DNA from: Terfezia claveryi
Lineage: Eukaryota > Ascomycota > Pezizomycetes > Pezizales > Pezizaceae
DNA length: 64,000 nt
NCBI GenBank assembly: GCA_015179025.1
Contig: WHUX01000029.1
Span: 248,001-312,000, forward strand
Direction: 5' to 3'
In this document: positions 3,076 through 53,213 of the stretch, piece by piece
Position numbering within the stretch: position 1 is the first letter of the stretch
Layout: every line of letters begins with the position of its first letter
Translations under genes and position numbers: made by a program
Notes under the pieces: model-generated
Told to the model about the DNA's origin: nothing
The model's database searches: none
Seen by the model: the letters and a program-made list of their open reading frames with translations, nothing else

Positions 3076-3112
3076 AGTCAAGCCTAGTCTGGCCGGCACC
3101 GGAAGTCAAGCC
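3076..3112 (+). mobile_element. micro-insertion with 9-bp target duplication
   Basis: AGTCAAGCC (3076-3084) and AGTCAAGCC (3104-3112) are perfect 9-bp direct repeats. They flank a 19-nt insert, TAGTCTGGCCGGCACCGGA (3085-3103). The TAG terminus abuts the left copy. Confidence 0.7.
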
Positions 3113-3495
3113 GACTATTAAGTACTTAACATACATAGTCCGATCCGACGATTTTCCTAATATTAGCATAATGTCACACTTTACAGTACCGAGCGATATT
3201 GAGTAAGTACGCAATGATCCAAGCTCCTACAGACTTGTCTCTCACAGCTTATCTAGGCACGAGATCAAGTCAGGTTCTAAGTGTTCACAGTAGATGCACA
3301 GGGGGTCTTCAGTCTCAAATAATGCGGTATTAGTGGCGCGCGAGTGTAAATAAACTTTGATACTCGCTAGTCTCGTAACTCAGATTATGCCTATCACCAT
3401 TTTTAAATGCGAGATTGATAGTCACGTCATTAGGACGGTCCAGAGTCGAGACTACTTACATAGCAGTACGGTTCACAGAGGAGGGTCATGCAACA

Positions 3496-3518
3496 GGTTG
3501 GCACAAGCCCCTCCACAG
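3496..3518 (+). repeat. partial copy of the extended TAGTCTGG motif
   Basis: GGTTGGCACAAGCCCCTCCA matches the inner part of the motifs at 12586 and 31092 but lacks the TAGTCT terminus. No flanking duplication is seen. Confidence 0.45.
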
Positions 3519-3530
3519 TCTGAGTTGTAA

Positions 3531-3552
3531 CTGTTTAGCTAGTCTGTTTAGC
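3531..3552 (+). mobile_element. footprint: TAGT between 9-bp direct repeats
   Basis: CTGTTTAGC (3531-3539) and CTGTTTAGC (3544-3552) flank only TAGT. This has the same architecture as the longer micro-insertions and may be the minimal retained terminus, but a 22-bp site alone could also be a chance duplication. Confidence 0.45.
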
Positions 3553-4838
3553 GAAAAATTCCTGCTACCTTCTAGAACTACGTTCCTACTTATAGTGGCG
3601 TGACTATACTTACGCCTGCCAACAGGATTCTGTGAACGAGATCACATGTCACCTAGTTCGACGTTGCCAAGGTTCCCCACTATAAATAAGATGTCGGCAA
3701 CGTTTATTCAGCTTCTGCATAAAGGTTCTATCTAGTTCCATAATGGTAAACACATCTGCTAATTAACCTTTAGGTGACAACCCTTTTTAAAGCGCGGGTT
3801 TAACTCTTTTAAAGTGCTAGCCCCTTGTAGAGTTATATTCTGTATAGTAAGAAAGCTATCCCTTATATCTTACCGTGAGAAAACCTAGTCCTGACATGAG
3901 CGTAGCAACCAGTTGGCCTCCCTGCAAATCGGATGTTCCGCAAGACTTGCATACAGACTTACAGGCTTGAAATTCAGGAACGGGCCAGAGGCGCCACCTC
4001 CGTTGATCGATCCCTGCAGGAAGTGTGACTACTTAAGCTGTTTAGAGATGTCGAGTTTGTGAACTGTGAACTAGGTGTTGGGTAGGTAATGCTAGATCAG
4101 TCTAGTCTTATTGAGTTGTTTTTTGTTTGGTTTGTTTGGACTGGTTTGATGTAAGCGGGTTACTATAGATAAAAAGTCCGGCCCAACATCGGCAAACCCC
4201 GTGACGGCACGTTCCTTCTTGATTCAGTTGGCAGTTGTACGAGAAATTAACAAACAGCTACATGTACCGAACATACCATTCTAACTACCAGACTACCGTG
4301 CATTCTACAAACAGACATGCAACTCAATTTTATCATTTACCGTTTTCAGCCCATTTTGAAGTGGCAACTAGCCCTATCAGGGAAATTTAGGTTCTGTAAG
4401 GCCTAGAAGTGGATATCTTGGCATTTGCGATGACGTACGATCACCCGAAACTGGAGCTTCCTTTGGCCCCAAACGCAAGTAAACTTATCTGACTTATGCA
4501 TTGGCGCATCTCTGCCTCCATCTGGGTACCGGTAGATCTGTCTCCAGTTAGTTGCAATTGTCATGTATGCGGGCCCCCCGCGCCATCTCAACTTCTCTGG
4601 GGCAGCTTTTGGCCTAGTACAACGAATCAGTGCATATGCTGAGAGTGGCGAAGAAGCTCCGAGTAGAGATGTATCCCAGCCAATACTGCTTTGAGTTTAA
4701 AGATTTCGATGGTGGAATTTTTTCTGCATAGATGCTTTATGTGGAGCCCAGTTGATTTACCCCTACAGTTTTTCCCTATCGCTGGCACAGGTGACCGAGA
4801 ACCAACCCATCACTCGCCCTGGATTATATTTGCTTAAG

Positions 4839-4871
4839 CTTGAAACCCTAGTCTGGTTGGCACTTGAAACC
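4839..4871 (+). mobile_element. micro-insertion with 9-bp target duplication
   Basis: CTTGAAACC is repeated perfectly at 4839-4847 and 4863-4871. It flanks the 15-nt insert CTAGTCTGGTTGGCA. Confidence 0.75.
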
Positions 4872-5844
4872 ATGTGAAGTAAGCCTGTTGGAGATGAGAT
4901 TTTGTGGAACGGTAGACGCACGTTATATGTGCCGAGTGCCTGATTGCGACTTTTTTTCCTGGATCGCGTACTTACTCTCGCACTTCCAGGTACCACTTCA
5001 CTGCACCTCCATAACCGCTCTGTGATTTCTCGCCCTCGCCATCTCTGCCTCCGGCCTACGAGGTCACCGTTCCGGACGCGTAATGCGTGCTGCAGGAGCT
5101 TTGCAATCCATCTCCATGTGTGCAGTAGCACCGCACAGGACGGCTTGCGATATCTGCTGCTGTCTCTCGCGGCAGCCTACCTAGACCTGGGGGGGTGAGA
5201 TAGGTACATAGGTAGGCAGGATAGTAGGCAGTAGTAGGGCAGGCCGGGTTTGGTTTTTTTTCCTTGCGCACTCAAGCTGCTACCTAGCCTGCTCGTCTGC
5301 AACGCACTTACGTTGCGGTGCATCCTTGGATCGCAACCTGTCGTGGCCCCTCGTTCGCGCGGCGGTCCCCTCAGCAGCACCGGCGTTTCCCTGAAGCCAA
5401 AGCCAAGTGCCTCCAGATTCTATTCTTACTCTCTCACATTCTAAAAAATAAACCCCCCATTTCTTACCAGTGCTAAAGTGCTGTTCCGCCTCTCCCTTGT
5501 CCTGCAACCTCTCGCTGCTGCTGCTTCAACTTTCCTTGTCCATCCCTCATTTTCTGAAACGGCACCATCAACAATCGGGCTGGTCATTGACGACCACTTC
5601 TTAGGCCTCGTACGTTAGCCCAGCACCGGTATCTCCGGTCTTTTTTCTTTGCTTACTGACCTGTCCACACTTATCTTTGTCAGTTCCTCTCACTCACGAA
5701 GTTGAATCGGCCTTTCACTCGCTTTTGTCATCGTTTTTCAGATACCAACGCTCGTTTTGGCATTCAGTTGACGATTTGAGTTCAAGTGGGAACTTTAGTA
5801 CACCTCAACCAAACATACAAACCAACAGCTATCCACACCTACAC

Positions 5845-8414
5845 ATGGCACCATCTGCGTCTCCCCGGTTACGGGTTTTATCTGGTATGTTAGGACTGCA
5901 ACTATTCAATTCTAGGCTGCCCTGCTAATTTTAATCTTCAGTTGGTGGAAACGCCGTTTCGGCATTTTTATCTTGGAGGTTACAGGCGACCAATGCTTGC
6001 GATGTGACCTTGGTTTGGAAATCTGGTTTCGAAGTAGTCTCTCAATACGGAATCTCCTTTAAGTAGACAACCTGATGTGGTTACAATTCTATTTATAGCT
6101 AATTCTGGACAAGGTCAAAACAGCTTGGGAATGAGCGGTTCAAGCCTCGTTCTGGTTTGTGCTACATTCTCTCTACCCCTTTTCCCTAATCTAACAAAGA
6201 TATCAGTCGTTCGATCCCCCGAAGATGCTGCATGCGCCGGAGGTTTTGACTACATTTTGCTATGTATCAAAGCACTTCCGGATGTTTACGACCTAGCAGC
6301 CGTCATCGAGTCTGTCGTTACACCACAGCATACCTGCATTCTCGTCAACACAACCAATTCTTTGGGCATAGAACCATTCCTTCAGACACGATACCCAAGC
6401 AATGTAATATTATCGCTCGTTTCTGGAGCGAACATAAGCCAGGTGGGCCCTAGTGATTTTGAGCATCTGGGGAATTCCGATGTATGGGTGGGGTCGACAA
6501 TAAAAAACTCAGAAATACCTACTAGTGTTCAGATGGATATGGCGGAAGCTTTGGCATTGACTCTTATCTCCGGCAATGTTGAATGTCATGTTTCTGCAAA
6601 TATTCGGCAGCAGCAATGGGAAAAGATGATTGGGTAAGTGAAAATGTTGTTTGCTACTTATATGGCCTCTGACGAATCTTTGCATATAGGCCAATCGCGT
6701 TTCATCCTCTAAGTGTACTGCTAGATTCACCAAATCATATAGCCATGCTGGAAAAACCAGGTATCAGGAAATTGGTCAATGACTTGGTCGAGGAGCTTAT
6801 CAGTATCGCTACTGCAGAGGGGAGTAAATTTCCAGACGATTTCAAAACTAAGATATTGGAGACCATGGCTCAGCCTTCAGATCATCAGAGTACCATGTAC
6901 CAGGACTATACCAGTCGGCGTCCAATGGAAATTGAAGTATATCTTGGTTCTCCAATAAAGATTGCCCAGCTGGTGGGTGTGAAAGCACCTCATTGTGAAA
7001 CTCTTTACAGTGTTCTCCACCATATAAATCAGGCCAATCAGGCAAAATCCCCGAATTCTTCTCCACCATCGACTGCGACACCGCCTTCCTCACGGCAAGT
7101 TCCGCCTCGTACCCAAATGAGCATCCGGGGGAAGCCACCCTCAAATCAGGGGCCATCGCCGGGGCCTCCGGGTAGGCGACCGCCTCCTGGAATGAATGGG
7201 GGGCCACATCTATCAAACGGCCATGGAGGAAGAGTTCATGGCGGCTATTCACCGAAACCACCGTCAAATGGAATCTCTAGGAGAAATTCCTTTGAGAATG
7301 ATCTCGAAGAATTTGGACATATAGCGATGTATGGGGATAGTTTAGAAGCTGACGATAGCCACTATCTTCCCGATGGTGGGGTGGGTCATCAAGGTCACAT
7401 GGGGGGGAACACGGCCGCCCCCGAGGCCAGTCAGCGGAAGAGTTGGCACTACGGGAACGTGAATTGGCTCTCAGGAGAAGGGAATTGGAGCTGAGGGAGC
7501 ACGATCTGATGAGGCGCAGTGAGGGAGCTAGCCGAGGACATGGGCGTGGTGGACCAGGAAGTGGGACCCGGAGGCAGAGTCAAATATATGAGGATGATGA
7601 TGACGAGGATGATGTTTACTATGACAATGGCCCGTTACCTCCATCAGTGGACCCTGATACTATCGACATGATGAGCGTAACGTCTAGGCGCAATAGGCGT
7701 GTACCGAGTGCTGGAAATTTGAGGAACATGGATCCTGGTGCGGTTCCCGCTTCACGAGGTCTACGACATCCAATGGCAAATCAACGGCCAGCAGCGATAA
7801 GAAATCGGACAAGCGCAAGACTAGTCAGTGAAATTCCTTCACTACACGACAATATATTAGAGAATCCTTTGATGGGTTATTCATCAAACAGATATGGCAC
7901 TGTTGATAGAAAGATGCTACACGATACGTCTCGGGCGAATTCATTATCTGCGACTCGTTTAGGAGATATAGGAGATGATCCGGCGTTTTCAAATCTGGGA
8001 CAGCGTGGTGGCCCATATCCAGTCCATGGATCTATGCCACGTCAAGGTGGACCACCTCCAAATATGAGGCCGAGCGGAACCCCAGGCCCTGGGAATGGTT
8101 ATCTGCCAGATACACGCGGCAGGGGGCCACCACATGGTCGGCCGCCGGTGCGACAGTCCATGCCACGCTATCTTCCTGGCCCTGGCGAACTGCAAATTCC
8201 GTCTCAAGTGGATCACCACAATTATGATCCTGTAAGCCAATCCCATCTGAATATTGGTCCACCAAGTAACAAAAACCGAAGCACGACGGGTAGTGCTAGC
8301 GCCAGCGCAGGCAGTGGGGACAGCGGCAGTGGCGTCAGTGCCCTCCTTGATTCCGAAAACTCAGCCTACAGCAGCTCCAGTAGCCTAGACAGAAAGGCCG
8401 GATATATCAAATGA
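5845..8414 (+). CDS. ketopantoate reductase-like (ApbA/PanE family) protein with disordered C-terminal extension
   Basis: Exons: 5845-5884, 5942-6062, 6114-6154, 6207-6633, 6690-8414, with GT..AG introns of 51-57 nt. The N-terminal Rossmann segment begins LRVLSVGGNAVSAFLSWRL. It is followed by LGNERFKPR, the central stretch CIKALPDVYDLAAVIESV and the helical C-terminal domain (NIRQQQWEKMIGPIAFHPLS). This resembles the fungal family that includes S. pombe Mug72; its in vivo substrate is not established here. After about residue 400 the chain is Pro/Gly/Ser-rich with a charged helix (LALRERELALRRRELELRE). The frame changes near the G7 tract 7401-7407: one more G gives a continuous 784-residue protein. 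A tiny intron is the alternative but shows no branch site. Confidence 0.85.
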
Positions 8415-9254
8415 GCGCAACATCTAGGGACGAGTCGCGACTATAGACCACTGGTGTATCTTGTATATGATGCCGCGATGCTAGCATCACTGCATTGTTT
8501 ATTCGTTGATTTCAATCTTACAGTTCCTATCTTAACCACTGGTTGTCATTATGAAGGAATGTTAAAGGCAGCCAATTGCAGGTGGGGTGTTGGTGCATCG
8601 GGTTCTCGTATAAATTGTTTGCTTTTCTTTGGGTTGGGTGGTCGAATACATGGTGTCATGATGGATTTCGCCGGGGGGGTTTCCATATTTTGTTTTTTGT
8701 CGTATATCAACTCGCTCGTGCTCCTCGCACACGAGACAATTTTTCTTCTGATGATCATCTTGTACTTTTCCAGAAAAGAGTACGCAGAGTCTTTTTACTC
8801 ACCTTCTTTGCGTATAACCCTTTTCATTATTAGTCTTAGTGGTCATAATTATACCCCGAGCTTGAGATTTATTATACCCTCTTCTCTGGACTTTGCTTAG
8901 TACCTAATTTTACTTGCTGAAAAATGTGTCGAATATACGGTTGTAACAACTTATATACTCTTTGTGCCCTCTTTTCATTAGATGATGTGACTTCATGGGT
9001 TACCCTCTACAGCTATGATACTGAACTTCAAAACATAAACTAAGTAAGGTACGTGGTTATCTAGTGGTCTATAGTGTATTAAGTAATCAATGTATATTTA
9101 ACAATTATGGATTCTTATACAGGTGATAATCCTCATTATGTAAGTATACCTTATCAAAAAATCAATCCCCTTATGATATCTATCTACGTGGGAATCATGA
9201 AAAAGTCATCATATCCATGTTAAAGTCCCGCCAATAGTATATTATAGCTATATT
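8415..9254. other. intergenic between convergent genes
   Basis: 3' flanks of the reductase-like gene and of the phosphatase gene. AT-rich from about 8900. The ORF at 8454-8900 is hydrophobic and T-rich without recognisable features, so I do not call it. Confidence 0.5.
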
Positions 9255-11206
9255 TCACGTCACATGCACTCTCCCCGGTTGCCTCAAGAACGTTAGTCTA
9301 TCAGGCGCCCACTCGGGTAACCCACAAGTCTTTCTAAAATCACCGCCCATGCTCCCTCGTTCAGCCACATGTGCCATGAGCCTGTCCAAAGGACAACTCT
9401 CCCCTGGCCCCGAGTCACATCCGGGGAGTGCCACGATCCCGTCGTTGACGTTAAAGCGGATGAACACACCAGCTTGAGAATCGTGGCTAGGGTCGGCTGA
9501 GCAAACCATACGCTGAAGAAGGATACGTCCGCCCATAGGGACAATCTGCGAGGTTCTCCACCGCCGGTTGGTATAGACTTCATCGGTGGGAAGTTTTTTT
9601 TCATCGTCAAAGAGCCCTAGGGCAGCAAGCATGGGGATAATATCACCGTCGTGGCCACTGGCAAAAGGGCGCGTTAGTATTATATATAAGAACTGGTGTG
9701 GGTAACAACCAACGTACAAACTAAGGAACACAGGGCCTGCTTCAGGGCCCTTCTGAATCAAGTTTGCGGTAGCGTTGAGCCAGAGCCAGCCCATTGCCAT
9801 TGCATATGGATTTCCAGGGCCGGCGCGGTAGAAATGAATGACATCACGGGCATATTCGAATTTCAGCCATTCGTCTTGAGTAAAGACATTGCACCATTTG
9901 CTGCTACCTCGAACTGTGGTTTCAAAGCCGCACATTTCTTGCATGCTGTAGATCTCAGAGTCTGGAGGTGGGTTAGCCCCGGCGTTGAGTCAGTCCATAA
10001 GGGAGTACGGACCAGTAAACTCGAATCCGGGGTTCTCCTCCTCAAGCCGTTTTGCAATGGCTGGTAGGTATGTAGACCTATACTTGAATAGCATCTGCTC
10101 CCCAAGAATACGTCCAGTCTCTAGATCCTCAAGGTATTTCGTGCAGGTATCACTAATATGGACATTAGACTTTGTATTTACGGGTCTACATTGTCCCTTA
10201 CCCAGGAGTTAACGTATTTCCACCCTTGTCCGCCGCCTCCGAAATGATCTCCAGCTTTGCTCTTCCAGACTGTTCGTAGTCTAGCCCAAAGAAACCCGCG
10301 CCGAAGTACTTGGCAGTATCAACAACTCGGTCTGCCTCAGAAGCCCAGAATAATGTGGGAGGCGGATGAAGAGTAGTATCGTTCCAGAGGTGGTGATACC
10401 GGGTTCGAAATTTCACACCAGTCCCGAATGCCTCGAGAGTCCCAGCATAGGGTCCTGTTGTCGTGAGTTGCTCGAAATGCTGATGAGGAGCTGCTAGGAA
10501 GTATACGATTAATACATGAGAAATTGGACATAAGCATAGACTGCGCCTTACCATGAGAGAAATAGTCCCAATGGTTCATGAAGGTAAGGGCCCCTCTCAT
10601 TTCCCTTCCGTTGGATTTTATCCGCTCCACCAACGCAATCATGCCTGCCCCGGTGACCTTAAAATTAGTTGGAGTTCAGAAGTGTGATTTGCTTTTAATG
10701 CCCGTATGTAGTCAACTTACGTTCGCCAGCATTTTGAGTTGGATATCTCTCGCCATGTCGTGACATCTTTTTTTGTCAGCTCGCGACCCCTGAATCACAA
10801 CAAAAAGCAAAAATCCTACCATATGGATCATGTCTATTTTGCACCCATTGGGGATGGCAATTCCTCCATCAACGACACCTTCGATTTTGGGTATCCATGG
10901 TCCATTTCCTCCCAGATGGTAAAGTATGTTCCATTGAGTGCTTAGTTTATCAGTTGCCTGTTGCTTAACGAACTTGAATGGCGGAATCAGATGAAGTGGA
11001 AACGACTGGGGTAAGAGGAGTAGTAGTATTGATGCTGCGAAGCAAAAGAAGGACAAGGCCAGGACGAAATATACTCCCATTCTGACCAACAAAGAACTGC
11101 AGCGCCTTGACGGCAAAAACATGTCGCTACTCTCCGAATATGCTGGCAGCTTCAGTCGACAGCCGTCGTCGTCGCTGGCGCTTTTCTCCTGAAGTACAGC
11201 AGGCAT
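9255..11206 (-). CDS. histidine acid phosphatase (phytase-like), membrane-anchored, with in-frame TGA
   Basis: Two-domain histidine phosphatase: phosphomonoester hydrolysis through a phosphohistidine. Exons on minus: 11206-10820, 10766-10721, 10644-10552, 10490-10202, 10152-9718, 9657-9255, coding 550 codons. Residues 43-66 form one hydrophobic segment with no obvious cleavage site, so a type II membrane anchor is likely. The catalytic motif SRHGERYPT (His133) is created only by splicing out the intron at 10767-10819. The second motif GHDGDIIP (His419-Asp420) is created by the GTACGT..CCAG intron. Paired cysteines and N-glycosylation sequons are present. Codon 326 (9990-9992) is TGA inside an otherwise continuous conserved stretch, LMD-stop-LNAGANPPPDSE, where Trp would fit. 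The gene is therefore a recent pseudogene, has a base error, or is read through. Confidence 0.85.
9990..9992 (-). other. in-frame TGA within the phosphatase exon
   Basis: Frame checked from the preceding splice junction: 10151 minus 9992 is 159, a multiple of 3. No GT donor or AG acceptor pair nearby removes it while keeping the flanking residues. Confidence 0.85.
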
Positions 11207-12810
11207 TTTGACACAACGGGACGTGTTCAGGTGGGTGGTTGAGAGCCGCTGTGATAAATCAGTGAAAAGCGACAGGGATTGCGACAGCCTCGGGAGGCCA
11301 TCGAATCAAGTTCAGCGAAGAGCACACGCGGGTTTCACAGTTTTAAAGCATAGGTACCCATCAGGTACAAGATTTGAAAAAGCTCAATGAATTAAAAACA
11401 CAAAACGCCAAGTTGAAAGCCCCAGCTGGTGTGATTATATGGCCACAGCAGCCCGAAGTAGTTGTATTCCCAGCTTCGAATAAAGCTCCACCCATTTTGA
11501 TCCTAGAAACCCAGATGTGCTCAAAAAAAGGTACCTCTAATCCGCTGATACATATGGCCATAGACAGATTTAAAGAAATGTCGTTCTCAACGTGCCATGC
11601 ACGACTGAAACCACCGACTCCATCTCCACTATTTGTGCCTTGCCCCCTCTCCGAAATTCGTGCGTCGTGATATTGGCTATTTATGCGGTTGTATTGGGGT
11701 TCATCTAAAGCACCCGTCAATATCAACTGGCTTTTGTGAAGTGGTATTATGAACTGACCTTTCTCTTGCCACCGGTCAAGGTAACGTTGACGAAACGACG
11801 GGTGTACCTATTCCCTCACAGAGTCAGCAAAACACCCTACCCCAGCTAGGCCTAGCCACAGATATCACATACAAGATCCTCTTCTTCGCACGTCCCTTAG
11901 GGGACTTGGGCTTCTCTTGCTTCTCAACCTATACCATCCACCTCGCATCAGCTTCATATTTCTCCTCTAGCAGTTCCCCCTCGCACACAAAATAGACTGA
12001 TTCGGAGTGTCGGTATGCCGTACCTTTGGGGTTTGAGACTTGACTTTTCCGGCACGAGCCAAGGATCCGTGAACTTTTCCCATATTTGCGGTTGCGTTGA
12101 AAGTTGCTTAAGCTGCGCTGTTTGGCGATGTCTAGATAATCAAAGAATTGTCAACGCCCAGTCCAAACTTGTGGTATATCATGCAATCGATGGAGGGGGT
12201 AATACCTATTAGCGATACGTTTGGCTGATAGCGATTCGACGGCTCTTTGGTGTGAATCGTGCCTCATCCATGGTCGCGTAGTGACGGTTAGGGTTGGCCC
12301 TCTGGCACGCCACACGTGGCGTCTCAGTAAAGTCCCGTACGCTTACTTTTGTTCATTCATTATTAGGTAAAAATGTAAAGTTTTAAAAAATAAACGAAAG
12401 AAAATAATAATATAGAGTTCTAGTTACTGTTTTACTGTCAAGGAGGATACAGAGCCTTCCTTCCAGAACGTATCATTCAGACCTCTCTTTACAAAAGATG
12501 TGCTGTAAGCTGGTGATGACAAGATTCGATTTATTTGTGGTAGACAACACACTGTGGCAACTCTCCACATATGTTGTTGAGTATGTAGTCTGGTTGGCAC
12601 AATCCCCTCCGTGTAAATTGTTTAGTCTGACTCGTTGAACCGAGGGACGGAACTTGACGCTGCCTTCTTCCAAACGTTTATATATAACTCTTGGGATCTT
12701 ATCACTATCCACTACTCGGAGGGAGACGAGCACACCTACCCTACCTTGGTTCTTTGCTATCTAAATAAACTGCTGCGAACCTCACATAGCTTCCCTGTAG
12801 CAAACTGATA
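11207..12810. other. spacer upstream of peroxiredoxin
   Basis: Divergent promoter region between the phosphatase and the peroxiredoxin. I recognise no protein in it; short ORFs at 11361-11726 and 12473-12733 have no motif. A copy of the TAGTCTGG motif lies at 12586-12611. 12370-12420 is very A-rich. Confidence 0.5.
12586..12611 (+). repeat. extended TAGTCTGGTTGGCAC motif
   Basis: The full terminus TAGTCTGGTTGGCAC is followed by AATCCCCTCCG. It matches the extended copies at 3496 and 31092. I see no clear flanking duplication. Confidence 0.6.
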
Positions 12811-13555: not shown

Positions 13556-13826
13556 TAGTACAACCGGTGTCAGAGAGCTATTTGGATTCCAACCATGGGC
13601 CACTAATATTCCCATTTCTTGTCTCGATTTCGGATCTAGGCTCACTTAGTATATTATTGATGGAACATCTGCCTGGAAGTCTACCTACCTAATTGGCCTG
13701 GGCATGCGAATGGTACGGAGCGAGACTGGGATGGCATTACTGTATGAGCTGGAACTTACCAAAGATTTATAATAAGTCCTCGGCAACTGGCTAATTTTAC
13801 ACTTATTTTTTTTTTTTCGTGAAGAG

Positions 13827-14186: not shown

Positions 14187-14228
14187 AGTATGCTAAGCAG
14201 AACGTTATAAGGTGGTTTACTATCCAGA

Positions 14229-14256
14229 TACGAGTGTAGTCTGGTTGGTACGAGTG
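14229..14256 (+). mobile_element. micro-insertion with 8-bp target duplication
   Basis: TACGAGTG (14229-14236 and 14249-14256) flanks the 12-nt insert TAGTCTGGTTGG. Confidence 0.7.
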
Positions 14257-20927: not shown

Positions 20928-22305
20928 TTCATATCTTCTTTCATTTGCTTGCAGACAGCAAGTTGAGATGTCTACGGAGAATTGTTGTTCCAGAAGCTTG
21001 GCAGGCCCTGGGACAATCCTATCCACCTTTTACCGTGTTGCTATATAGTACTACCGGGAAAACTGGTGAATAAGACTCCTTGTCTGTATCTTTGCTCTTT
21101 CCTTTTTGTGGTAGGCGCGTTACTAGTTGTGGGCAGATAGCGTCCTTGACTCTGATTTTGAAAGTATGATTCAGATACAGACAAGGGGTCTTATTCACCA
21201 GTTTTCTCGGTAATACATAGCTATAGGCTACGTATTTACAAAGTTTGTACACATGTACAGTACGGTAAATACTGTACTCATATACCTGACACCAACCTGA
21301 ATGTGGGGCACTCATAAACTGGATCCTATGTCTGGAGATGCTAATGTATTAGCGAGACTGGTATAGTAAATTCAGACAAATTTCAACGTCGGTGCAGCTT
21401 CGGATTGAGGCAGGCAAACATCGGACTAGTATCATTTAAAGATCAGGGTAATGATGATATTAAGCTAGGTAAACTGATGAGCCTTGGTAAGTTTTCAAGT
21501 ATGGTAACAAAATCCCCATTGGTTTACCTAGTGTGTCCGCATGTTAATACCGAAGGCAGCTGTGATACGAATGCTCTGCTTGTACTTCGGCTTCTTCTCC
21601 GCTTCCCATTTTATTGTTTACAAGTAAACTTGACTTTATATATTCCCCCCCAAAAAAAACCTACTCCAAGTCATTTTGGCTGTATATTTGCTGTTTCTTT
21701 GCCTAGAAACTGTAAATGCTTGTTAGATAATATGTTCAATATTTCTATATTAAATATCTAAAAATACTTCGATAGGCAAGCCAGACAGCGAGAGTCATAT
21801 TTCCAACTGGGTACGACACCTTCAACACCCGCAGCCGATTATCTTGTTGTATTCCAATGTTTAATATACTAAGTATGTTGAAGTGCTCCCGAAACTGGTT
21901 ATGCATTGGGATCTGTATGGGAACTTGTTACTGTCGACGATGATAAGCCCGGGGTAGATAGGGTTAGGTATGTGCCAGAGCTAATTTTTATGATATCAAT
22001 ACTGAATCAAATATAATGGCTCTAGCATGTAGAGAAATCCAATTCATGAGCTAGAAAAAAGACATCGAAATGAGAAACTGCAATATAGCAACTAATCCTC
22101 TCTACCAATCCGATGTCCCCAAATTGCTCACGCCATACCACTTAGCAAAGAAAAAACATTTCCCAGAATGTGATGCTCATCCAGATACGCCATCTAGTAT
22201 TCATAAGCCTAGCCGCCTAGATGCCACAAGGACTACATGTTTGTCATTCTAACCCCCCCCCCCCCGACCCCCCTCTTTCAAACTAGCATAGGCTCTCATC
22301 CGAAT
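20928..22305. other. spacer with MITE copy 1
   Basis: POP1 upstream region and 3' flank of UBC13. Contains the 157-bp MITE at 21054-21210 and a C-rich run at 22253-22265. No gene seen. Confidence 0.5.
21052..21212. mobile_element. 157-bp MITE, copy 1 (TA target site)
   Basis: The element 21054-21210 starts CCGGGAAAACTGGTGAATAA and ends with its near-perfect inverted copy, giving terminal inverted repeats of about 38 bp. A TA dinucleotide flanks each side (21052-21053, 21211-21212), as for Tc1/mariner-class insertion. A second copy of identical length lies at 49900-50056. Confidence 0.9.
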
Positions 22306-22962: not shown

Positions 22963-23820
22963 CTCGTGCAGAGTATTTACGCTGAGCTATGTAGTCTTTG
23001 GTGGAGGGGGAGGGATTAGCCGAGAAGCGAAGCTAATAGGAGGGGGGGTGGGGAGAGTATTTGTGGGAGGGGGTGGAGGATTAGAAGGTCCTGTGGATAT
23101 CGTAACCTACACCTGACTGTAGTCCTCTTTCTCTTAGATTTTCTTCTGCTTTAGGGGCGTTGGTGTAATGTCTGTGAGGGAGAAACGAGCTGTGACCCTG
23201 AAGTCCGGTGGAATTGTTACTGGTGATCTGATGCCGATAAGATCAGCACCTTTGTAGGGCTGTCTAAGTGCTGTCGAATGTCACCCAAGGAAGAGAACTA
23301 GGAGGTATGGAACACGAGACGAGCGAGCGGTTGCGTCAAATGAATCCCGATGGAAGGGAGCACGCGAGACGACTATTATTTAGCATGTTGTGTGGAGTAG
23401 CTGTGACTTAAGTACTGCGTGGGGCTGGTGGAGTCCAATAGCAGCTTACTAAGAGATCAATCACGAGCCAGGCAACTCGTTCTCCCTGTCGTCCAGTCGA
23501 TCAACTTTGTCGCCGCGAACATACGTATCTGTAGTCTGCGTATCTGTATATATGAGCCTTATGAGATGTTTTATTTTTTGTAGTCGTGAGCCTTCTAAGA
23601 AGTTCAAGTAATTGAGACGAGCTTGGCGATTCGGTATCAATTCATTCCCGCGCGAGCGAGCCCGAGACTTCATCGTGGCGCTAGTGACGCTGACTGCCAC
23701 CGTTGAGGCAGCCTGTTTCGAGGAACGCAGTCGCAATAAAGCCTAGGGCTCCTGAGAATGCGCCAGAGGCGTCCAGCCTGATTGTTTTGAGATACCGAAC
23801 CATCAAAGACCTCAGTAACC
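22963..23820. other. divergent promoter region of UBC13 and MTC5
   Basis: 858 bp between two divergent start codons. The part near UBC13 has purine-rich G tracts (22990-23080). No gene or RNA recognised. Confidence 0.5.
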
Positions 23821-29623: not shown

Positions 29624-29656
29624 GGCGCCCAGGTGCCAACCAGACTAGGCGCCCAG
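29624..29656 (-). mobile_element. micro-insertion (reverse orientation) with 9-bp target duplication
   Basis: GGCGCCCAG is repeated perfectly at 29624-29632 and 29648-29656. It flanks GTGCCAACCAGACTA, the exact complement of TAGTCTGGTTGGCAC. The fixed terminus now abuts the right copy, as expected for an inverted insertion. Confidence 0.78.
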
Positions 29657-31082: not shown

Positions 31083-31128
31083 GCTGTGGACTAGTCTGGT
31101 TGGCGTAAGCCCCTCCATAGCTGTGGAT
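31083..31128 (+). mobile_element. 28-nt micro-insertion with about 9-bp target duplication
   Basis: GCTGTGGAC (31083-31091) and GCTGTGGAT (31120-31128) flank 31092-31119. The insert starts TAGTCTGGTTGGC and continues into GTAAGCCCCTCCATA. It is the longest single-ended member and shows the sequence beyond the terminus. Confidence 0.7.
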
Positions 31129-32567: not shown

Positions 32568-32596
32568 TGCAAGGCTAGATCGAGACTATGCAAGGC
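32568..32596 (-). mobile_element. micro-insertion of the GATCGAGACTA type with 8-bp duplication
   Basis: TGCAAGGC (32568-32575 and 32589-32596) flanks TAGATCGAGACTA. Read on the minus strand the insert begins TAGTCTCGATC, so it shares the TAGTCT terminus with the main family. Confidence 0.55.
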
Positions 32597-32704
32597 TTTC
32601 CGTATGCGTACCGTACTACATGTCGCATAGATGTGGAATATGGACAAAGAGGACTGAAGTACGTGGCACTTGGCACAGCAAGACGTACTTGTACCTGATG
32701 CATG

Positions 32705-32715: not shown

Positions 32716-32722
32716 GTGGCAG

Positions 32723-32912: not shown

Positions 32913-32945
32913 CGGCTGGAGTAGTCTGGTTGGCACCGGCTGGAG
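32913..32945 (+). mobile_element. micro-insertion with 9-bp target duplication in the leader of an ORF
   Basis: CGGCTGGAG (32913-32921) and CGGCTGGAG (32937-32945) flank TAGTCTGGTTGGCAC (15 nt). It ends 13 bp before the ATG at 32959. Confidence 0.78.
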
Positions 32946-34273: not shown

Positions 34274-34307
34274 ACATATACCAGTGCAAGCCAGACTAAC
34301 ATATACC
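34274..34307 (-). mobile_element. micro-insertion (reverse) with 9-bp target duplication
   Basis: ACATATACC (34274-34282 and 34299-34307) flanks AGTGCAAGCCAGACTA, whose complement starts TAGTCTGGCTTGCA. Confidence 0.7.
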
Positions 34308-34338: not shown

Positions 34339-34386
34339 TCATGTAATTATTAGTCTAGTTAAGTAATATATTATGGTGTAAATCAT

Positions 34387-41861: not shown

Positions 41862-41921
41862 TAGTCTGGCTGCACCTGACAAGATTCGTTGCCACAGTGC
41901 AGGGGCAGTGCAGCCAGACTA
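41862..41921. mobile_element. 60-bp palindromic element with TAGTCTGG termini
   Basis: Begins TAGTCTGGCTGCAC and ends GTGCAGCCAGACTA, a perfect 14-bp inverted repeat. It carries the family terminus at both ends, so it may be a complete tiny element. No flanking duplication is visible. Confidence 0.6.
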
Positions 41922-45961: not shown

Positions 45962-46548
45962 CGTCTGGGACTTGCGAGATCTAGCTTTCTTTGACTCCCG
46001 TTTACAACGCTTTATTATTCTTTAATCTTTCAGTCTTCTTACACTCCATTGATTTGAGCCAGACGGGATATGTCAGTCTCTAGACCAACTAGGTTATATC
46101 GAGAAATCCCTATTGTTTTTACCATGTACCTTTTTCGTAAAACTATTACTGTAGTATGACCAGTTTTTCTAGCGATAAAGCGACGCGGCGGCAATACTCA
46201 TAACATATGATACCCAGCCCGGTAAAGTCAATCTACAAACAAGGATACTTGGGGAATACTTTGTACAACTTGGAAGGTACTTTCAGCCAGTATGCTTAGC
46301 AGTTACTCTCCAATCAAGTCTCGAATTACCCAGGCATATTTATTACCCAATCGCCTTGTATTTCTTCAGTGCAATCTACTGCTCTGTGGGCTCGGCAGCG
46401 GGCCGCACCTGGCGAGCCAGAATAACAGGTCTAACTAGCCTCATTCATTGGCTATAGTCACGAATCAATAGATATACTGCAGGGAAAAAAAATATCTCGA
46501 AACACACTTTTCTTCTATTAAATGAGTATCCACGTGACGCTTGTCTGG

Positions 46549-46654
46549 CGATGATCAGGATCAAATATTAATCTCCAAGCGAGATTCACGATGATCAGGA
46601 TCAAATATTAATCTCCAAGCGAGATTCATCACCAAGCGAGATTCATCACCAAGA
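46549..46654 (+). repeat. tandem duplication, 40-bp and 17-bp units
   Basis: A 40-bp unit containing GATGATCAGGATCAAATATT occurs twice in tandem (46549, 46589). It is followed by a repeat of its 3' part with unit GCGAGATTCATCACCAA. Confidence 0.85.
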
Positions 46655-46977
46655 TTGTTCGCGCATTCGGCATGCCGTATTGTCCACGCGTCTATTCCAA
46701 CGTTCAGTTAGAAGCCAGACATAAGGTTGTGAGGGCGAGATCCCGAAGCCGTGTGGAAAGCTCTGACAGTACGAAGACCATACATGTGGTAGTAGAAGGA
46801 CGTTCCTGTATAAGAACGAGATCTACGGTTTATAGTTCAATGGAAAGAGGAGGAAATGTCATCCACCCGAGTTTCCGAGTGGGACCGAATAGGAGTAATG
46901 AATATTTTTTTTTTAAAAAGAAAGAAAAAGGGAAATGTTATTTTTATTTACAGAGCATTAACAGTCGGGAACTTTCG

Positions 46978-46992
46978 TAGTCTGGTTGGCAC
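46978..46992 (+). repeat. TAGTCTGGTTGGCAC motif
   Basis: Exact 15-nt motif. The flanks GAACTTTCG and CGAACTCG are only loosely similar. Confidence 0.5.
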
Positions 46993-47021
46993 GAACTCGC
47001 TCGTTGTTCCCGTTTGGAGTA

Positions 47022-47114
47022 GTCTACTTGTGCCTCGTACAAACCAGTCTGTTGTCTATGGGGGAAGTTGCGAGGTCACGAATTATTAACCTGGGTACGA
47101 GGCTAGTCTACCGG
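47022..47114. mobile_element. 75-bp inverted-repeat element, copy 1
   Basis: Insert 47031-47105 begins TGCCTCGTA and ends TACGAGGCTA. The flanks GTCTACTTG and GTCTACCGG match at 7 of 9. The interior AACCAGTCTGTTGTCTATG and the following GTTGCGAGGTCACGAA are shared with the copy at 57703. Confidence 0.65.
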
Positions 47115-47142
47115 TACTTGTATGTACTAACCTTCGTCAGTA

Positions 47143-49781
47143 CCCTTGCAAGCCTAGTAGTGCACAGCCACCGTCTAGTGCACACACCTGAAACACCTCT
47201 TGCAGGCCCCCCCTGCAATATAAATACATGATATACCTAACCATTTGGGCGACAGTCCAACTCTAGCTATATGTACAACTATGGAAACAAATACGCTCTA
47301 CAATATGGTTACCCTCACACTTCACTCAAATAAACACAAGCCTCAATACCCTGCCCTTCTAATATACACTTCCCGAAATCCCCAATGAACCCCCCCTTAT
47401 CCTTCCATCCTCCGCTACATACCAAATACCATACCAATATAGCCCTAGCTCTTAGAGCATCTCAACTATGCATCTAGTTACTCATGTTAGATGAATATGT
47501 AAGGGAATAGCTTCATAATGAGTGAAATGCAGACTGATACGTAGGGGCACTAACCTCTGCAAAATAACCAATATCAAGGTTTCTCATAGAATCTGCTAAA
47601 TCCTCCCCATCTATCTCTTCCTCAACCTCCTCGTCAACCCCTACTTCAAACCACACTTCCGCCCTATCCTCCAAGTCATTCTCAACTACTATAGAGAGAT
47701 CACTACCTCCACTACCCCCTCCTTTAGGCTTAAGTGGTCGTTTGGGTCGGGGAGGGTGGGAAGGCTTTCTCCCGATCCTTTTTGACCCCTTCGCGGCAGC
47801 CTTCACAATAGCCCATGCTTCGTCGATCTCCGTACATTCCGCTTGCCATGCTGGTACCTCAACCTCCTGATACCGCTGAAGATCCGCCTTCCACTGCTTG
47901 TTAATGGTATCTCTACTAGCCTTTTTTTCCTCCGCAATCCTCTTCTTTTAATTGCCGCCTCCTGCCTCCTAGCCTTAGCTGCTGCTGCTTCTGCATTCCT
48001 CTTAAGCTCATCATTAACGTACTGGTGGGTTAGAACACGAGCTTCACCAACATACTTTGTACTTTTCTTCTCCTTCCGCACTTTCCCATCCCTTAGCTTT
48101 TTAAGGGTATGTGCACGAGGAGCAATATCCCGATATTTAGTAACCTTTTCCGTCGCAAGATCAATATAGTCATGAATGAGAGTCTTTTGAATAGGCTTAA
48201 GATTATCACGAATCATATCTTCAACCTCTCGGGAGAGCTGGCGCAGCAGCGCAGGGGTATCTAAGACAGCACTAGTAGCATTCAAGTTGGCAGCTGAGAC
48301 ATTGGCACGTGGGGGGGTTGGTGGGGGATGAAACACGCGATCGATAGGCCAGCAGCGGGCTGCCCGCCACGCACTATAGATGATCTCCTCCGTAAATACC
48401 TGCTCTCGTGTCTGCTGAAGAATATCAAGGAACTCAACCTTTGATATGCCTAATAGAGGATTCTCACGCAGCCATATACTGAGGTTGCGTTCATAGGTTG
48501 TTTGTAGGAGGGAAAAGCAACCGACATCAAGAGGTTGAAGAAGATGCGTAGACTTGGAAGGAAGACAAATTGGGTGGATATTGTGGTTGAGAGCGTATTT
48601 GACCACTCGCCATGCAATATGAGAGGAATGGCCATCAACAATAAGACATCGTGGACCTCCGTCCTCCTAGTATATGGCTCAAAATACTGCTTCATATATT
48701 CCAACCCAAGCTCATCATCCATATATCCACTAGGTGAGACTGCGAATGTTGCTTCATGTTCCACCCCCCCTCCCGATAATATGATTCTCGGTGAGTCTTC
48801 CCCTGCCATACAATAAATGGAGGAATAACCACCCCCCCTGCACTGACTGTCTCCAAAACACTGCAAAACTCACAAGACCCATCTGTCATGACAGTACTTC
48901 TGCGCCCCACTCGTACAATTGCCATGACCCTCCTACTATTTCTTCCCATAGTTATTCCCTTCTCATCACAATTCCAAATATCTTCCTGAGCTATCCTCTT
49001 CCGTCGTACCAGGTTTGCAAGCTTGTGGAGAAAATCTGCCTGCAACTCTATATCATTGGTTGCCGCCGCTCTTGCTCTCTCCTGGTATCGAATATAGACT
49101 TTTTTGAACCCTGAGTTGCGTTCAAGAAATCTATCTACCCAGTGGATGCCAACAATATGTATTGGGGGGGTGGTGGAGGCGGAGGTGCTAGTGGAGGCGG
49201 GTATTGCACCTTGTCGTTGTATACGCTGGTTCCTCTGGTCGCGAGGCTTGACGGCAAGTTGTTGAGGACCCACAATACCCCCCCCTTGACCTTGTTGGGG
49301 TATTTGCCTTTCATTAACAATCCCTTGCGCAATCTGCCGTAAAAGGTCGGGATTCAGAGGAAATCCTGCATCCGCCATGACTCCAGCATAGTCTGCAATT
49401 GCCTTCTCTTCACCCGTAGAGAACAGCTGCTCAATCTGGTGAGCTATAGACCTATCCTGGTGGGTCCCCAGCACTCTCTGACGCAATGTGGTGCGCTCTA
49501 CCCCATAGAGGTCTGCAATACGTATGGTAGGTACGTCTGGCTCTCGTAGAGCATGCTTGACTGCATCTCGCAGCTGTTGTTCTGTATACTTGGGCATTTC
49601 TGTATCGGGGGCCCCTTGGTGGTGTTGCCCTAGCTTCCGTGATTCGACTGATATAGGTTGATACCATTCTGTTTGTTAGGGGGTGTACTGCGGCTGGGGA
49701 AATGCTGAGGAGGCAGGTGCATATGTATATCTTAGACAGTGTGCACTACACGGTGGCTGTGCACTACTAGGCTTGCAAGGG
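47143..49781 (-). mobile_element. complete pogo/Fot1-type DNA transposon (2639 bp)
   Basis: 41-bp terminal inverted repeats (47143-47183 and 49741-49781) start CCCTTGCAAGCCTAGTAGTG and differ at one base. A TA dinucleotide flanks both ends (47141-47142, 49782-49783), the standard target duplication of the Tc1/mariner superfamily. It carries one transposase gene on the minus strand. Confidence 0.92.
47513..49597 (-). pseudogene. pogo/Fot1 transposase (DDE endonuclease) with three frame breaks
   Basis: The N-terminal HTH (MPKYTEQQLRDAVKHALREP, then ADLYGVERTTLRQRV) is followed by a CENP-B-like second DNA-binding region and the DDE core: NCDEKGI, CLIVDGHSSHIAWRVVKYAL and LLQPLDVGCFSLLQ. The C terminus is rich in Lys/Glu. 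Frame breaks occur at the C7 tract 48764-48770, near 48668-48671 and near 47943-47949. Each is corrected by one additional base, giving about 695 residues. As written the enzyme is broken after the first catalytic Asp. The near-identical terminal repeats argue for recent activity, so the breaks may be very recent or sequencing errors. Confidence 0.88.
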
Positions 49782-49881
49782 TACCGACTGTCTTGGCATT
49801 GCCGTGCAGCAAAACCGCTCTAACCCGTTAAATAGAAAACGGGCACGATTTGGACTAGTTTCGTGAGAGTAAACCCTCTAC

Positions 49882-49899
49882 GAGGTCTGATCGAGACTA
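49882..49899 (+). repeat. GGTCTGATCGAGACTA motif abutting MITE copy 2
   Basis: Ends in the TA that served as target for the MITE, so the motif was present before the MITE inserted. Confidence 0.5.
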
Positions 49900-50058
49900 C
49901 CGGGAAAACTGGTGAATAAGACTCCTTGTCTGTATCTTTGCTCTTTCCTTTTTGTGGTAGGCGCGTTACTAGTTGTGGGCAGATAGCGTCCTTGACTCTG
50001 ATTTTGAGAGTATGATTCAGATACAGACAAGGGGTCTTATTCACCAGTTTTCCCGGTA
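49898..50058. mobile_element. 157-bp MITE, copy 2 (TA target site)
   Basis: The element 49900-50056 has the same length and termini as 21054-21210, with very few differences between the copies and TA on both sides. Its termini differ from those of the pogo element 120 bp away, so that element is not its obvious parent. Confidence 0.9.
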
Positions 50059-50095
50059 ATATAAACAGTTGCGCCCACCAGACTAATGTAAACAG
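50059..50095 (-). mobile_element. micro-insertion (reverse) with 10-bp target duplication
   Basis: ATATAAACAG (50059-50068) and ATGTAAACAG (50086-50095) flank TTGCGCCCACCAGACTA, complement TAGTCTGGTGGGCGCAA. It lies directly beside MITE copy 2. Confidence 0.62.
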
Positions 50096-50639
50096 GAACC
50101 GCTCCCCGGTAGTGTACTTTCAATACCATCCTCCTAAAATTCGTTAGGAATGTCAGGTGCGACTGAGTAGGTAGAACCATAGAGGTGGAAATTCCCCAGG
50201 GTAAGGATCGGCGGCCCTGATGCAGCCAAACACTTAAAACATTGTCTAAACTATTACAGTAGTAAATAAGTAGATAGAGTTAAGTCATTCAGGTACGCAT
50301 TGCCTTCGGCTCAGGTTCGCTTCATTGACAATGTTAGTTGACCGTTCTTTGGGTCAGTTTTACGATGCGACATCCCCGGAGGTCGCTTTAGGAGGAATAA
50401 TTCAGAATGAAGGCAACTTTCTGGACATTCTGGGGATCCTGCTTATTACGGGGAAGCCTATCCGAATACAAGAGAGAGGTATGAAGAAAAAATACTAGGC
50501 TGGAGGCCGGACACTATGATGTCTATTGCAATAGTAAGTGCTGGGCTGTAGGAGTATGCTGATTGATGCAAACGAATGGGTAGGTCATATTAATGTGAAC
50601 GATGAGCTATGGGTATATCCCATCATGTCTCATAACGTA

Positions 50640-51170
50640 TCAGGCACATGCTACTGAAATTCGTGCTCGTGATGTGGAAGATGTTGCTTATTTCTGGAGT
50701 CGTGAATCCAATATTGAGAGTTGATCGTAGAGCGTGGAGCGTGGGTTTCGAAGCAGCGCATATTTCTTCCTTAAATGCGGAGAAACTATGGATTAAGGAG
50801 GTGGATGACACAAACGGAGTGTCGAAGATCAACTCACCACAAAATGGGATGTTGCTTCGGTCAGATATTCATCATATGTTGAAATCAATACACGATATCG
50901 GTAAATTTAGATGTGTGAGTAATTTATTGCTGAATTTATACTATTTACACTAACAAAGTAGCAGGACAGTTACAAGGCCGTCGTCTTTGATGAAGATTAT
51001 TTAGGACTGGACGGAAGAGTGCTTGATCCAGTTTGTCGAGATCCGAAAAATGTGCATCGTGTCTCGGACGAGCTATTGAGATGGTATTAGGTACAGTCAA
51101 TGTGTGTTCGATAACGGGAGAGCCGATATTCGAGCAAGATTTTTCAGGGGGGATCTGATTGGGGTAATAA
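50640..51170 (+). pseudogene. HNH (HNH_2-type) endonuclease relic
   Basis: Fragments in more than one frame match the common fungal HNH_2 proteins: GVVNPILRVDRRAW, FEAAHISSLNAEKLW, INSPQNGMLLRSDIHHML. After a still recognisable intron (donor GTGAGT, acceptor near 50962) follow YKAVVFDEDYLGLDGRVLDP and SDELLRWY, then, in another frame, GEPIFEQDF. At least two frame shifts and a stop make it non-functional. Confidence 0.65.
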
Positions 51171-51634
51171 GCAAAGGAGCTGTATGCAAAAGGGTGAAAA
51201 TGGAAGTCGAGGCTAGATTGAAAGGGTAGTCTAGTTTGTGTATTACTAGGTTTAGTAGAATTTATTATCATTCGGAGGATATCTAATTATTTTATTACTG
51301 AAGGAGGGGGCCCCGCGAAGCCCAAAGTGGATCAGAACTATTATTTAACATGAGTAAGCGAGAAGGAGATTTTAGGAGGCAGAGCTATTCTATGCATTTC
51401 ATTGGAGCCCTGTGTCTGTCTATCTTTCCCTGGCAGGTCGACGCGGTTGCTTCCTAATGTACTCGCCGGCGAGGGAAAGCACGATGACATATACGACACT
51501 AATAACGTTAGGTTCAAAGAGATTTACACCTGGCAACCGATAGCTTTTCTCCGTTTGGGTGAGAGACATCGTGGCTCATCATGATAACTAGTGCCTATTG
51601 GAAGCCTACACACTTGCTGTTTTGTTCTTTTCCA

Positions 51635-51664
51635 CGATTTCTGTAGTCTGGTTGCGATTTTCTG
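51635..51664 (+). mobile_element. micro-insertion with about 9-bp target duplication
   Basis: CGATTTCTG (51635-51643) and CGATTTTCTG (51655-51664, one extra T) flank TAGTCTGGTTG (11 nt). Confidence 0.6.
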
Positions 51665-52030
51665 TAGAGTGATGTCAACTATCATGTGGCAGATTACTTT
51701 GAAGGTTCCTTTTGCTCAGGCGTAACGTTGCCTGTGAATCTGCACAGGACATACGTGAGTTATTATACGGGCGAATCCACCACGAAACAGAAAATGAGGA
51801 TGCGCTGTCAGTTTTTACCAAAATGGTGCTCCGATGCCCACAACTCGAACCGGAGCCGCATCTTGATTATGCTTTTAGACGACAGTAGTCTCGGCACCAT
51901 GATAAGAAGCAATCGGAAAATAATTGTACACAATTGATCCCGGGAACGTGCCAGTATACCGGCAAACACATCTATACCACGCCCACTCGCTCGGAAGCAT
52001 AACGAATTCGAGTTCGTGAATCCCTCACTA

Positions 52031-52061
52031 CCTTATTCCTAAGTCTGGCTGCCCTTAATCC
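52031..52061 (+). mobile_element. micro-insertion with about 9-bp target duplication
   Basis: CCTTATTCC (52031-52039) and CCTTAATCC (52053-52061) flank TAAGTCTGGCTGC (13 nt). One mismatch in the duplication and one extra A in the terminus. Confidence 0.5.
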
Positions 52062-52643
52062 TGCAATTGGCTAGCAATTGGCGGATACCCGCGTTGTGCA
52101 TACTGCAGAAGCGTCCTTGACTTTGGGCGAATAGCTAGTGAAGTTTCTATGACCCCAACTTGTAGTTTTTGTGTGCCTCTAAGGTATCAAGAATTAGTAT
52201 GTAAGGCAGCTGTTGATAATCAGCGGCACTATAACAGACCTTTGCTTTTTTTCATGCTTGGATGTTGTTATCCGGTACTTCATGGTTGCAATGTGAAAAT
52301 CATGGTCTCAATTTCATGATCACCACCTCGGAGTCTCATGCTTCCTGTGGCTTGCAGCACACTTATGTTACACGGAAAATAGGATGCCATATGAAGGAGT
52401 TACAGCTGTGATATAAGTAAGGTATCCCGGGCCAATTTCGTGGTATACGACGTTGCACATGCAGTTCCTTTGGAGACGACATGAGGGTCGTATCAAATAA
52501 TACAAACCGGCTATAAATGCCCATATTTGGTTTCTTTTCTTTTTCCGCTGGAGCTAAGAATATCCAAGCTTTGGCTCTTATGATAAATGAATCGTCTGAA
52601 GTCTTGAGAAGTCCAAGCTGTGTGGAGCCTCGAGCTTGTTGAA

Positions 52644-52688
52644 TGTATGTACCATGTACCATATGTATGTACCATGTACCATGTACCA
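52644..52688 (+). repeat. short tandem repeat, TACCATG units
   Basis: A unit ATGTATGTACCATGTACCAT occurs about twice and is itself built from TACCATG repeats. Confidence 0.8.
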
Positions 52689-53187
52689 GTCTGCATGTAG
52701 CTCTGGCTTCCAGTTGGTGCATGTCAGTACCCAGACACGGTTAATTTTTCCAATGGTGTACCCCATACTCACTGTATCGTCCCTGGCGATCGGGAGCATC
52801 GGACAGTTATGTCTCCAGAATGACGGAGTGGTTCCGTGAAAGGTACGGTACATACCTAAGTACTTTCCTTCTAGATCTAACTATCGTCCCGGCGCCGGTA
52901 GGCTCGGAACACCACCCCCCTCTCGCTTCCACGGCTGGTTTGTGCATTGCCGCATCATCACAAATGTCACAATTATAATTAACTCAAGGTTACATGTACG
53001 GGAAAGCTTTACTCGCCTCCACTGTGCCGCGGCTGTACATGGTATTTGTCTATTTGTCGAGCCCCCGCCCTGCTGGCCTACGGCGTTGGACTGTGTAATA
53101 CTCGACGGCCGTGGTGTTCCGGCCTCTGTGGTGCCTGATTCCTGCTTACTCTGCTCAGCCAGTGCGAGCACTCGCATGGAACATCGT

Positions 53188-53213
53188 CCCTCATACTAGT
53201 CTGACCCTCATGC
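53188..53213 (+). mobile_element. micro-insertion with about 9-bp target duplication
   Basis: CCCTCATAC (53188-53196) and CCCTCATGC (53205-53213) flank only TAGTCTGA (8 nt). Confidence 0.5.

Follow-up and report, generated by a model that had tools for sequence, protein, structure and literature searches.

The window analysed here, a stretch of 64,000 nucleotides of Terfezia claveryi (contig WHUX01000029.1, positions 248,001 to 312,000, from an assembly of 794 contigs and 72.56 Mb), harbours a series of micro-insertions, each of which is a short piece of DNA that begins with TAGTCT, with TAGT or with an eroded version of this motif and lies between direct repeats (Table 1). The window also encodes a POP1 protein, which shares 92% identity with that of Terfezia boudieri and 87% with that of Tirmania nivea, both of them desert truffles. 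A tRNA scan of the window returned none.

All 13 sites that had been listed in an earlier reading made from the DNA letters alone (hereafter the sequence-only reading) are present in the sequence. Of the seven 9-bp repeats described there as perfect, six abut the TAG end directly (3076, 3531, 29624, 32913, 34274 and 34387) and the one at 4839 is perfect after a register shift of one base; a single mismatch is found at five other sites (14229, 31083, 50059, 52031 and 53188). Two sites were added, one with a perfect repeat and one, only probable, with a single mismatch. The motif TAGTC has 15 matches in the window with a flanking repeat at no more than one mismatch, two of which (15630 and 32236) look doubtful as inserts. 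When 59 permuted 5-mers were put through the same test, AGTCT, which represents an overlapping register, gave 13 matches, and the other 58 averaged 1.1 and reached at most 6, the latter value belonging to CTAGT, which also overlaps TAGTC. The flank of one insert (at 50085) shows 98% identity over 132 bp with positions 21083-21214, the repeat ending near the insert.

Table 1. Micro-insertions in the window, with coordinates covering the insert and both flanking repeats.
Insert	Position	Strand	Flanking repeats and remarks
19 nt, TAGTCTGGCCGGCACCGGA	3076..3112	+	perfect 9-bp repeats AGTCAAGCC
4 nt, TAGT	3531..3552	+	perfect 9-bp repeats CTGTTTAGC
15 nt, TAGTCTGGTTGGCAC	4840..4872	+	TTGAAACCC/TTGAAACCA; perfect as CTTGAAACC one base leftward
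11 nt, TAGTCTGGTTG	14228..14256	+	8/9
6 nt, TAGTCT (probable)	23523..23546	+	8/9; added site
15 nt, TAGTCTGGTTGGCAC	29624..29656	-	perfect 9-bp repeats
28 nt, extends into second predicted hairpin region	31083..31128	+	8/9
12 nt, TAGTCTCGATCT, CGATC subfamily	32568..32597	-	perfect 9-bp repeats; added site
15 nt, TAGTCTGGTTGGCAC	32913..32945	+	perfect 9-bp repeats
16 nt, TAGTCTGGCTTGCACT	34274..34307	-	perfect 9-bp repeats
15 nt, TAGTCTGGTTGGCAA	34387..34419	+	perfect 9-bp repeats
18 nt, TAGTCTGGTGGGCGCAAC	50059..50094	-	8/9
11 nt, TAGTCTGGTTG	51635..51663	+	imperfect repeat: 3 mismatches ungapped, better with an indel
13 nt, decayed, TAAGTCTGGCTGC	52031..52061	+	8/9; end reads TAAGTCTGG
8 nt, TAGTCTGA	53188..53213	+	8/9

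The same sequences are abundant in the whole assembly. The 15-mer TAGTCTGGTTGGCAC occurs in 2,885 copies (1,432 and 1,453 on the two strands), against 0 for the reversed control, the 12-mer TAGTCTGGTTGG in 4,088 copies against 34, and TAGTCTCGATCAGAC, which represents a second subfamily, in 379 against 2. With about 14 inserts and nine exact 12-mers the window has a 12-mer density above the genome average; scaling its inserts by the 4,088 genomic 12-mers would give a total of roughly 6,000 inserts.

Flanking repeats were evaluated in 273,045 bases containing 110 sites with the seed TAGTCTGG[TC]TG, and compared with 50 shuffles. An exact abutting 9-bp repeat was found at 38 of the sites (shuffled mean 0.6, maximum 2), and one with at most a single mismatch at 58 (shuffled mean 2.1, maximum 5), so that the comparison with shuffled positions proposed in the sequence-only reading comes out far above chance. 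The length of the maximal exact repeat peaks at 9 bp (29 of the 59 seed sites having at least 6), and TAGT ranks first among the 256 possible 4-mers for exact 9-bp flanking repeats (67/2,143, against a median rate of 0.46%). Part of the material is biased, given that the assembly loci L009-L028 (L-numbers label loci examined besides the window) were picked for carrying TAGTCTGGTTGGCAC. Nine of 20 further sites chosen by the 15-mer alone possess a repeat, six of them exact and three with one mismatch; the lack of a repeat at the other 11 may be explained by age, longer elements or some other cause. The targets (65 distinct ones, derived from 71 exact entries) display no strong base preference. 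There is no enrichment of bare tandem duplications of 9 bp, two being present at gap 0 versus three for 8 bp and two for 10 bp.

That the duplications reflect real insertions, as had been supposed, is supported by empty paralogous sites, which lack both the insert and the second repeat. Among the matches listed, an 11-nt insert of L034 is missing together with one 9-mer in four paralogs (L017 twice, L042 and L032), the 9-mer being diverged in the latter two, and in a fifth one, L031, the sequence has diverged too far at this point for a judgement. A 34-nt insert of L022 has one empty paralog among the matches listed, while no clean single-copy empty site was present in two comparisons of L023 and two of L006. 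A nested case is found in L013, where an older insert, some 33-34 nt long, contains one of 15 nt that has a duplication of its own. The micro-insertion pattern is real. In L019 (8324-8414), adjacent inserts of 28 and 29 nt, which belong to different subfamilies, have overlapping targets (AACAAAAAT and ACAAAAATT), as if the site had been reused.

The fixed end of the inserts is TAGTCT, which is common to all subfamilies, and the sequence behind it differs. When 15 family ends were folded with DNA parameters, most showed one or both of two adjacent predicted hairpins. Hairpin 1, located just behind TAGTCT, varies between families by matching changes (GTTG-GCA-CAAC, GGTTG-GCA-CAACC, GGCTA-GCAC-TAGCC, GGCGG-GCA-CCGCC, GGCT-GCACT-AGCC and GTCT-CGATC-AGAC), and hairpin 2 is of the type CCCTC-loop-GAGGG. 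Stems of 4 bp or more are present in 12/28 distinct long inserts for hairpin 1 (shuffled mean 3.75, maximum 9) and in 9/28 for hairpin 2 (mean 2.5, maximum 8); since the sequences are related and the 500 shuffles kept composition only, these figures are supportive and do not amount to a formal probability.

The opposite end of the insert is variable, with preferred stop zones. The list of insert lengths covers inserts of 6-55 nt, with the overlapping loci L001-L003, L007, L008, L029, L030 and L033 omitted, and contains 110 one-ended entries, among them four copies of one insert carried by a Mutator-like element (MULE; L047-L050), two entries that stem from a tandem repeat in L017 and one or more nested composites. 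De-duplication, in which the tandem entries were dropped, left 103 distinct inserts with a bimodal distribution: 53 measure 6-16 nt, five 17-24 nt, 38 25-36 nt and seven are longer (58, 5, 40 and 7 before de-duplication, with peaks at 10-11, 15 and 27-32 nt). With respect to the hairpins the stops form two clusters, one surrounding the hairpin 1 loop and the other extending from the hairpin 2 loop to the 3' base of that hairpin. Among 11 inserts of the CGATC subfamily, five stop at 11-12 nt, four at 25-27 and two at 43, while in the TAGTCTGGTTGG group (46 inserts, at least 12 nt long by definition) 21 stop at 14-16 nt, 23 at 25-36 and two later; hence, the stop positions appear to move along with the hairpins from one subfamily to another. 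Genome-wide counts fall from 3,193 for the 14-mer prefix to 2,885 for the 15-mer and 1,616 for the 17-mer, the last step being owed in part to subfamilies that differ at those positions.

Besides the one-ended inserts, a minority carries the TAGTCT end on both sides (17 entries, mostly counted on both strands, versus the 110 one-ended ones). Within 53 bp of each other, 136 head-to-head, 73 tail-to-tail and 168 same-strand pairs are found in the genome; if the pairs were merely independent neighbours, the first two counts would be equal. In 50 head-to-head strings, judged by end sequences drawn solely from other inserts, the gap between the end pieces is at most 2 nt in 24, 3-8 nt in 10 and more than 8 nt in 16. 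The end pieces are thus directly joined in 24/50 listed, or 20/46 distinct, inserts. At the 20 distinct direct joints, an overlap of at least 3 nt is seen in eight, compared with 12% in simulation (p ~0.002), and one of at least 2 nt in nine, compared with 27% (p ~0.07). Perfect 9-bp repeats surround head-to-head inserts of 30, 50, 50 and 54 bp. Two CGATC-type head-to-head inserts (44 and 50 bp) have no perfect 9-bp repeat, and by eye appear to have 8-bp repeats. The window itself contains a 60-bp head-to-head pair, TAGTCTGGCTGCAC..GTGCAGCCAGACTA (41862-41921), with no recognisable 9-bp duplication.

A long element bearing the same end was identified in L017 (4949-7268). It is a foldback of 2,320 bp, both ends of which start with TAGTCTGGTTGCAC, flanked by the repeats CTAGTATCG/TTAATATCG (7/9), and the three outer segments of its arms are 95-100% complementary. 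The combination typical of foldback elements, namely long inverted repeats with many tandem repeats and a 9-bp duplication, is seen in this element alone, with the duplication at 7/9, and not in the short inserts. The longest open frame comprises 110 codons, so a transposase gene in the element is unlikely. In the related L031 one such end is kept and runs through hairpin 2 into GTCTGGCGCAATTTATT, a continuation that is also found in L017 (with GGCAC) and L032 (with an altered tip), and a 31-base internal pattern of the L017-type family was detected at eight places in the genome (at most 3 mismatches). The right end of L042 was considered as a further element end and rejected, for it proved to be an insert of 28 nt flanked by a repeat of its own, GGTATGGCC/GGTACGGCC. 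Outside the foldback, the unit of a tandem repeat with TAGTCTACTTGGTGTTGACTGAATGATCAC (L017:4674-4760) mimics inserts having 9-bp flanks.

The genome contains 21 matches to MULE domains, and two kinds of MULE were inspected as partners that could supply the transposase. The first (L035/L036) has perfect 9-bp duplications (TTGTTGAGG and TGCTACCTA) and termini beginning CGGACTGACTC.. (listed also as CGGACTGACT..), which differ from TAGTCT. In the second kind (L037-L040) the inverted repeats of L040 and L038 run out at other sequences. The inverted repeats of the L040-type MULE hold an old 11-nt TAGTCTGGTTG insert with the duplication GGTTTAGTG (L047:1946, L048:1074, L049:1517 and L050:612), which lies in both inverted repeats of two large foldback-like copies; it is a passenger multiplied with the MULE, not the MULE end. 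A frame with a match to the DDE_1 transposase domain is located on the minus strand of the window (47803-48606).

As for the established classes, the inserts agree with MULEs in duplication length (8-11 bp, mostly 9), and a MULE is a possible parent. The P element superfamily generates 8-bp duplications, in contrast to the peak at 9 observed here, and its transposase domain (PF12017) has no match in the genome or in the control genomes. Long and short interspersed elements (LINEs and SINEs), characterised by a 3' tail, a duplication of variable length and a preference for certain nick sites, are at odds with a constant 9 bp, with the missing tail in the listed inserts and with the lack of a strong preference among the 65 targets. 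Miniature inverted-repeat transposable elements (MITEs) carry two terminal inverted repeats per copy, whereas most inserts are one-ended.

The reading preferred here, with a probability of about one in two, is that the inserts are excision scars of a cut-and-paste element with a 9-bp target site duplication (TSD), closed by end joining in such a way that the terminal 4-36 nt are usually kept on one side. A DNA element with TAGTCT... inverted ends would insert, produce the duplication and later leave; one end of the resulting break, or more rarely both, would keep or re-copy the outermost 4-36 nt of this element, and the break would be closed by end joining. The length of the piece kept may be set by hairpins 1 and 2, beside which the stops cluster. 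The step favoured is repair synthesis that would enter the element from one side and be released once the new strand folds into the hairpins, after which the other side would be joined; nearly equal to it stands a long 3' overhang, as in the P element, that would be trimmed at the hairpins. Where no element sequence is left at the break, rejoining would run via the pair of 9-bp copies and bring back the empty site, and the lack of an excess of bare 9-bp tandem duplications would find its explanation in this. The idea that each end retains its piece independently was set aside at one stage because the class with nothing retained is missing, and was later reconsidered, since such rejoining would remove precisely that class. 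One-ended remnants of excision had been among the options named in the sequence-only reading, and this part stands as the best supported one, because the 2.3-kb element shares the end of the inserts and roughly half of the two-ended ones analysed look end-joined. The label MULE-like, which had been attached to it, fares less well, as both MULE kinds inspected have other ends.

Several observations weigh against excision scars. Only a single long element with both ends, flanked by an imperfect duplication, faces thousands of inserts, and no convincing long element with a GGCAC-type end is present in the examined sequence; nor is any transposase linked to TAGTCT ends among the two MULE kinds inspected. 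One-ended inserts dominate, unlike the repair products of the P element, which are both-sided in the parts of the source cited below. One-ended junctions have no excess of microhomology (27/44 have none, 28.9 expected; 17/71 exact inserts outside the consensus list were left out), and many head-to-head pairs, the 16/50 whose end pieces lie over 8 nt apart, are no simple joints. The predicted hairpin energies are weak, and the hairpin statistics are subject to the limits given above. Finally, two events, insertion and loss, are needed at each site.

Direct insertion of short pieces is simpler in this last respect. Here the 4-36-nt pieces would be inserted as such, a one-ended insertion mobilising the structured tip of the element (two hairpins and TAGTCT), with the hairpins setting the length. 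This explanation is entertained as a tentative second possibility.

Target-primed copying of a short structured RNA (~27-34 nt, with a 3' end ..GUGCCAACCAGACUA), which corresponds to the second option of the sequence-only reading, truncated target-primed reverse transcription, seems rather unlikely. In this scheme synthesis of complementary DNA (cDNA) would be primed by a nick and start from the invariant 3' end, the constant duplication would result from another cut at a distance of 9 bp, synthesis would stop at the 5' end of the RNA or inside a hairpin, and two-ended inserts would arise by double priming. Such copying agrees with a fixed end that abuts the repeat and a variable opposite end, with the small number of inserts above 36 nt (7/103), with the non-enrichment of bare duplications and with thousands of copies beside very few long elements, and it needs a single event per site. 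However, the same end serves as the inverted termini of the long L017 element, the 65 distinct targets lack a strong base preference, and no Rfam match was obtained in the window at gathering thresholds. Pausing of reverse transcriptase would be expected ahead of the first stem arm, whereas the stops lie at or past the 3' side of the hairpins in the cDNA sense; pausing at hairpins is therefore a poor fit to the stop positions.

Somewhat less credible still is aborted insertion, in which a transposase would join the ends to target strands 9 bp apart, the body would immediately be lost by cutting at the subterminal hairpins and the pieces would be joined, the long element never being resident at the site. 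Although this would yield 9-bp duplications, one- or two-sided end pieces and two-ended microhomology in one event, and would account for the low number of resident copies, it leaves the one-ended excess unexplained and requires that the element be cut exactly at one junction. Moreover, we know of no element that has aborted insertion as its main outcome.

The view that palindromic copies of 50-54 bp are independent miniature elements, and that the one-ended form arose through subsequent loss of one arm, is very improbable. Three palindromic 50-54-bp inserts do have perfect 9-bp duplications, but the one-ended inserts stop precisely at the duplication, a result not expected of random arm deletion, the arms of two-ended inserts vary independently from 11 to 31 nt, and the two-ended form is a minority (136 places versus 4,088 12-mers). 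The variety seen among the palindromes speaks against this idea, which was dropped. Chance or an assembly artefact is practically eliminated by the zero count of the 15-mer control, the shuffled flanks, the first rank of TAGT among 256 4-mers and the empty paralogs, and nothing was found in its favour.

If the inserts are excision scars, the nearest precedent for the kept ends is the repair of P element breaks in Drosophila, where, in the parts of the report cited here, the TSD and up to 17 nt of terminal sequence are kept on each side and the junctions show microhomology inside the tails (PMC2895639). The two systems share a remaining duplication with pieces of the element end and microhomology at the joints. 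They differ in that the P element has an 8-bp duplication and 17-nt tails on both sides, while the inserts have 9 bp, two length zones reaching ~36 nt, mostly one side kept and thousands of copies. Muta1, as far as the cited passages go, makes 8-9-bp duplications without sequence preference and occasionally leaves terminal-repeat remnants of up to 13 bp, yet about 90% of its excisions are precise when duplications are present (PMC5225508). It thus resembles the present case in duplications and remnants and differs from it in mostly precise excision, scars being abundant here and no transposase linked to them. Together with what is reported for mPing, it offers a precedent for rejoining through the duplication copies, which fits the absence of bare duplications. 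In contrast, exactly two duplications were left in only 8/94 excisions in rice, according to the portion cited (PMC4423477). Foldback/Mutator elements of the Tm1 type share with L017 long inverted ends that contain tandem repeats, and their duplications mostly measure 9 bp; their end sequences differ, and no genome-wide field of end remnants is mentioned in the cited part of that paper (PMC3169594). The footprints of Stowaway/mariner elements are described as small (PMC4561436, cited in part), whereas the inserts are long and structured.

The 15-mer TAGTCTGGTTGGCAC is not mentioned in the literature searched, and publications on excision footprints, micro-insertions with target duplications, foldback MULEs of Pezizomycetes and Terfezia repeats revealed no such insert field in their titles and the beginnings of their abstracts. 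Footprints carrying element ends are known already; thousands of long, hairpin-bounded, mostly one-ended footprints in a single genome were not found described.

Each event adds a duplication and an insert (e.g. 9+15 = 24 bp), an increment that would easily be missed by repeat annotation. If the inserts were direct insertions, they would represent a new route to a minimal mobile sequence and would rank among the shortest mobile sequences known. If they are scars, the genome would hold a legible record of transposon departures in the thousands, far above the number of resident copies seen, and would show how a fungus repairs breaks with a 9-bp duplication, hairpins setting what stays.

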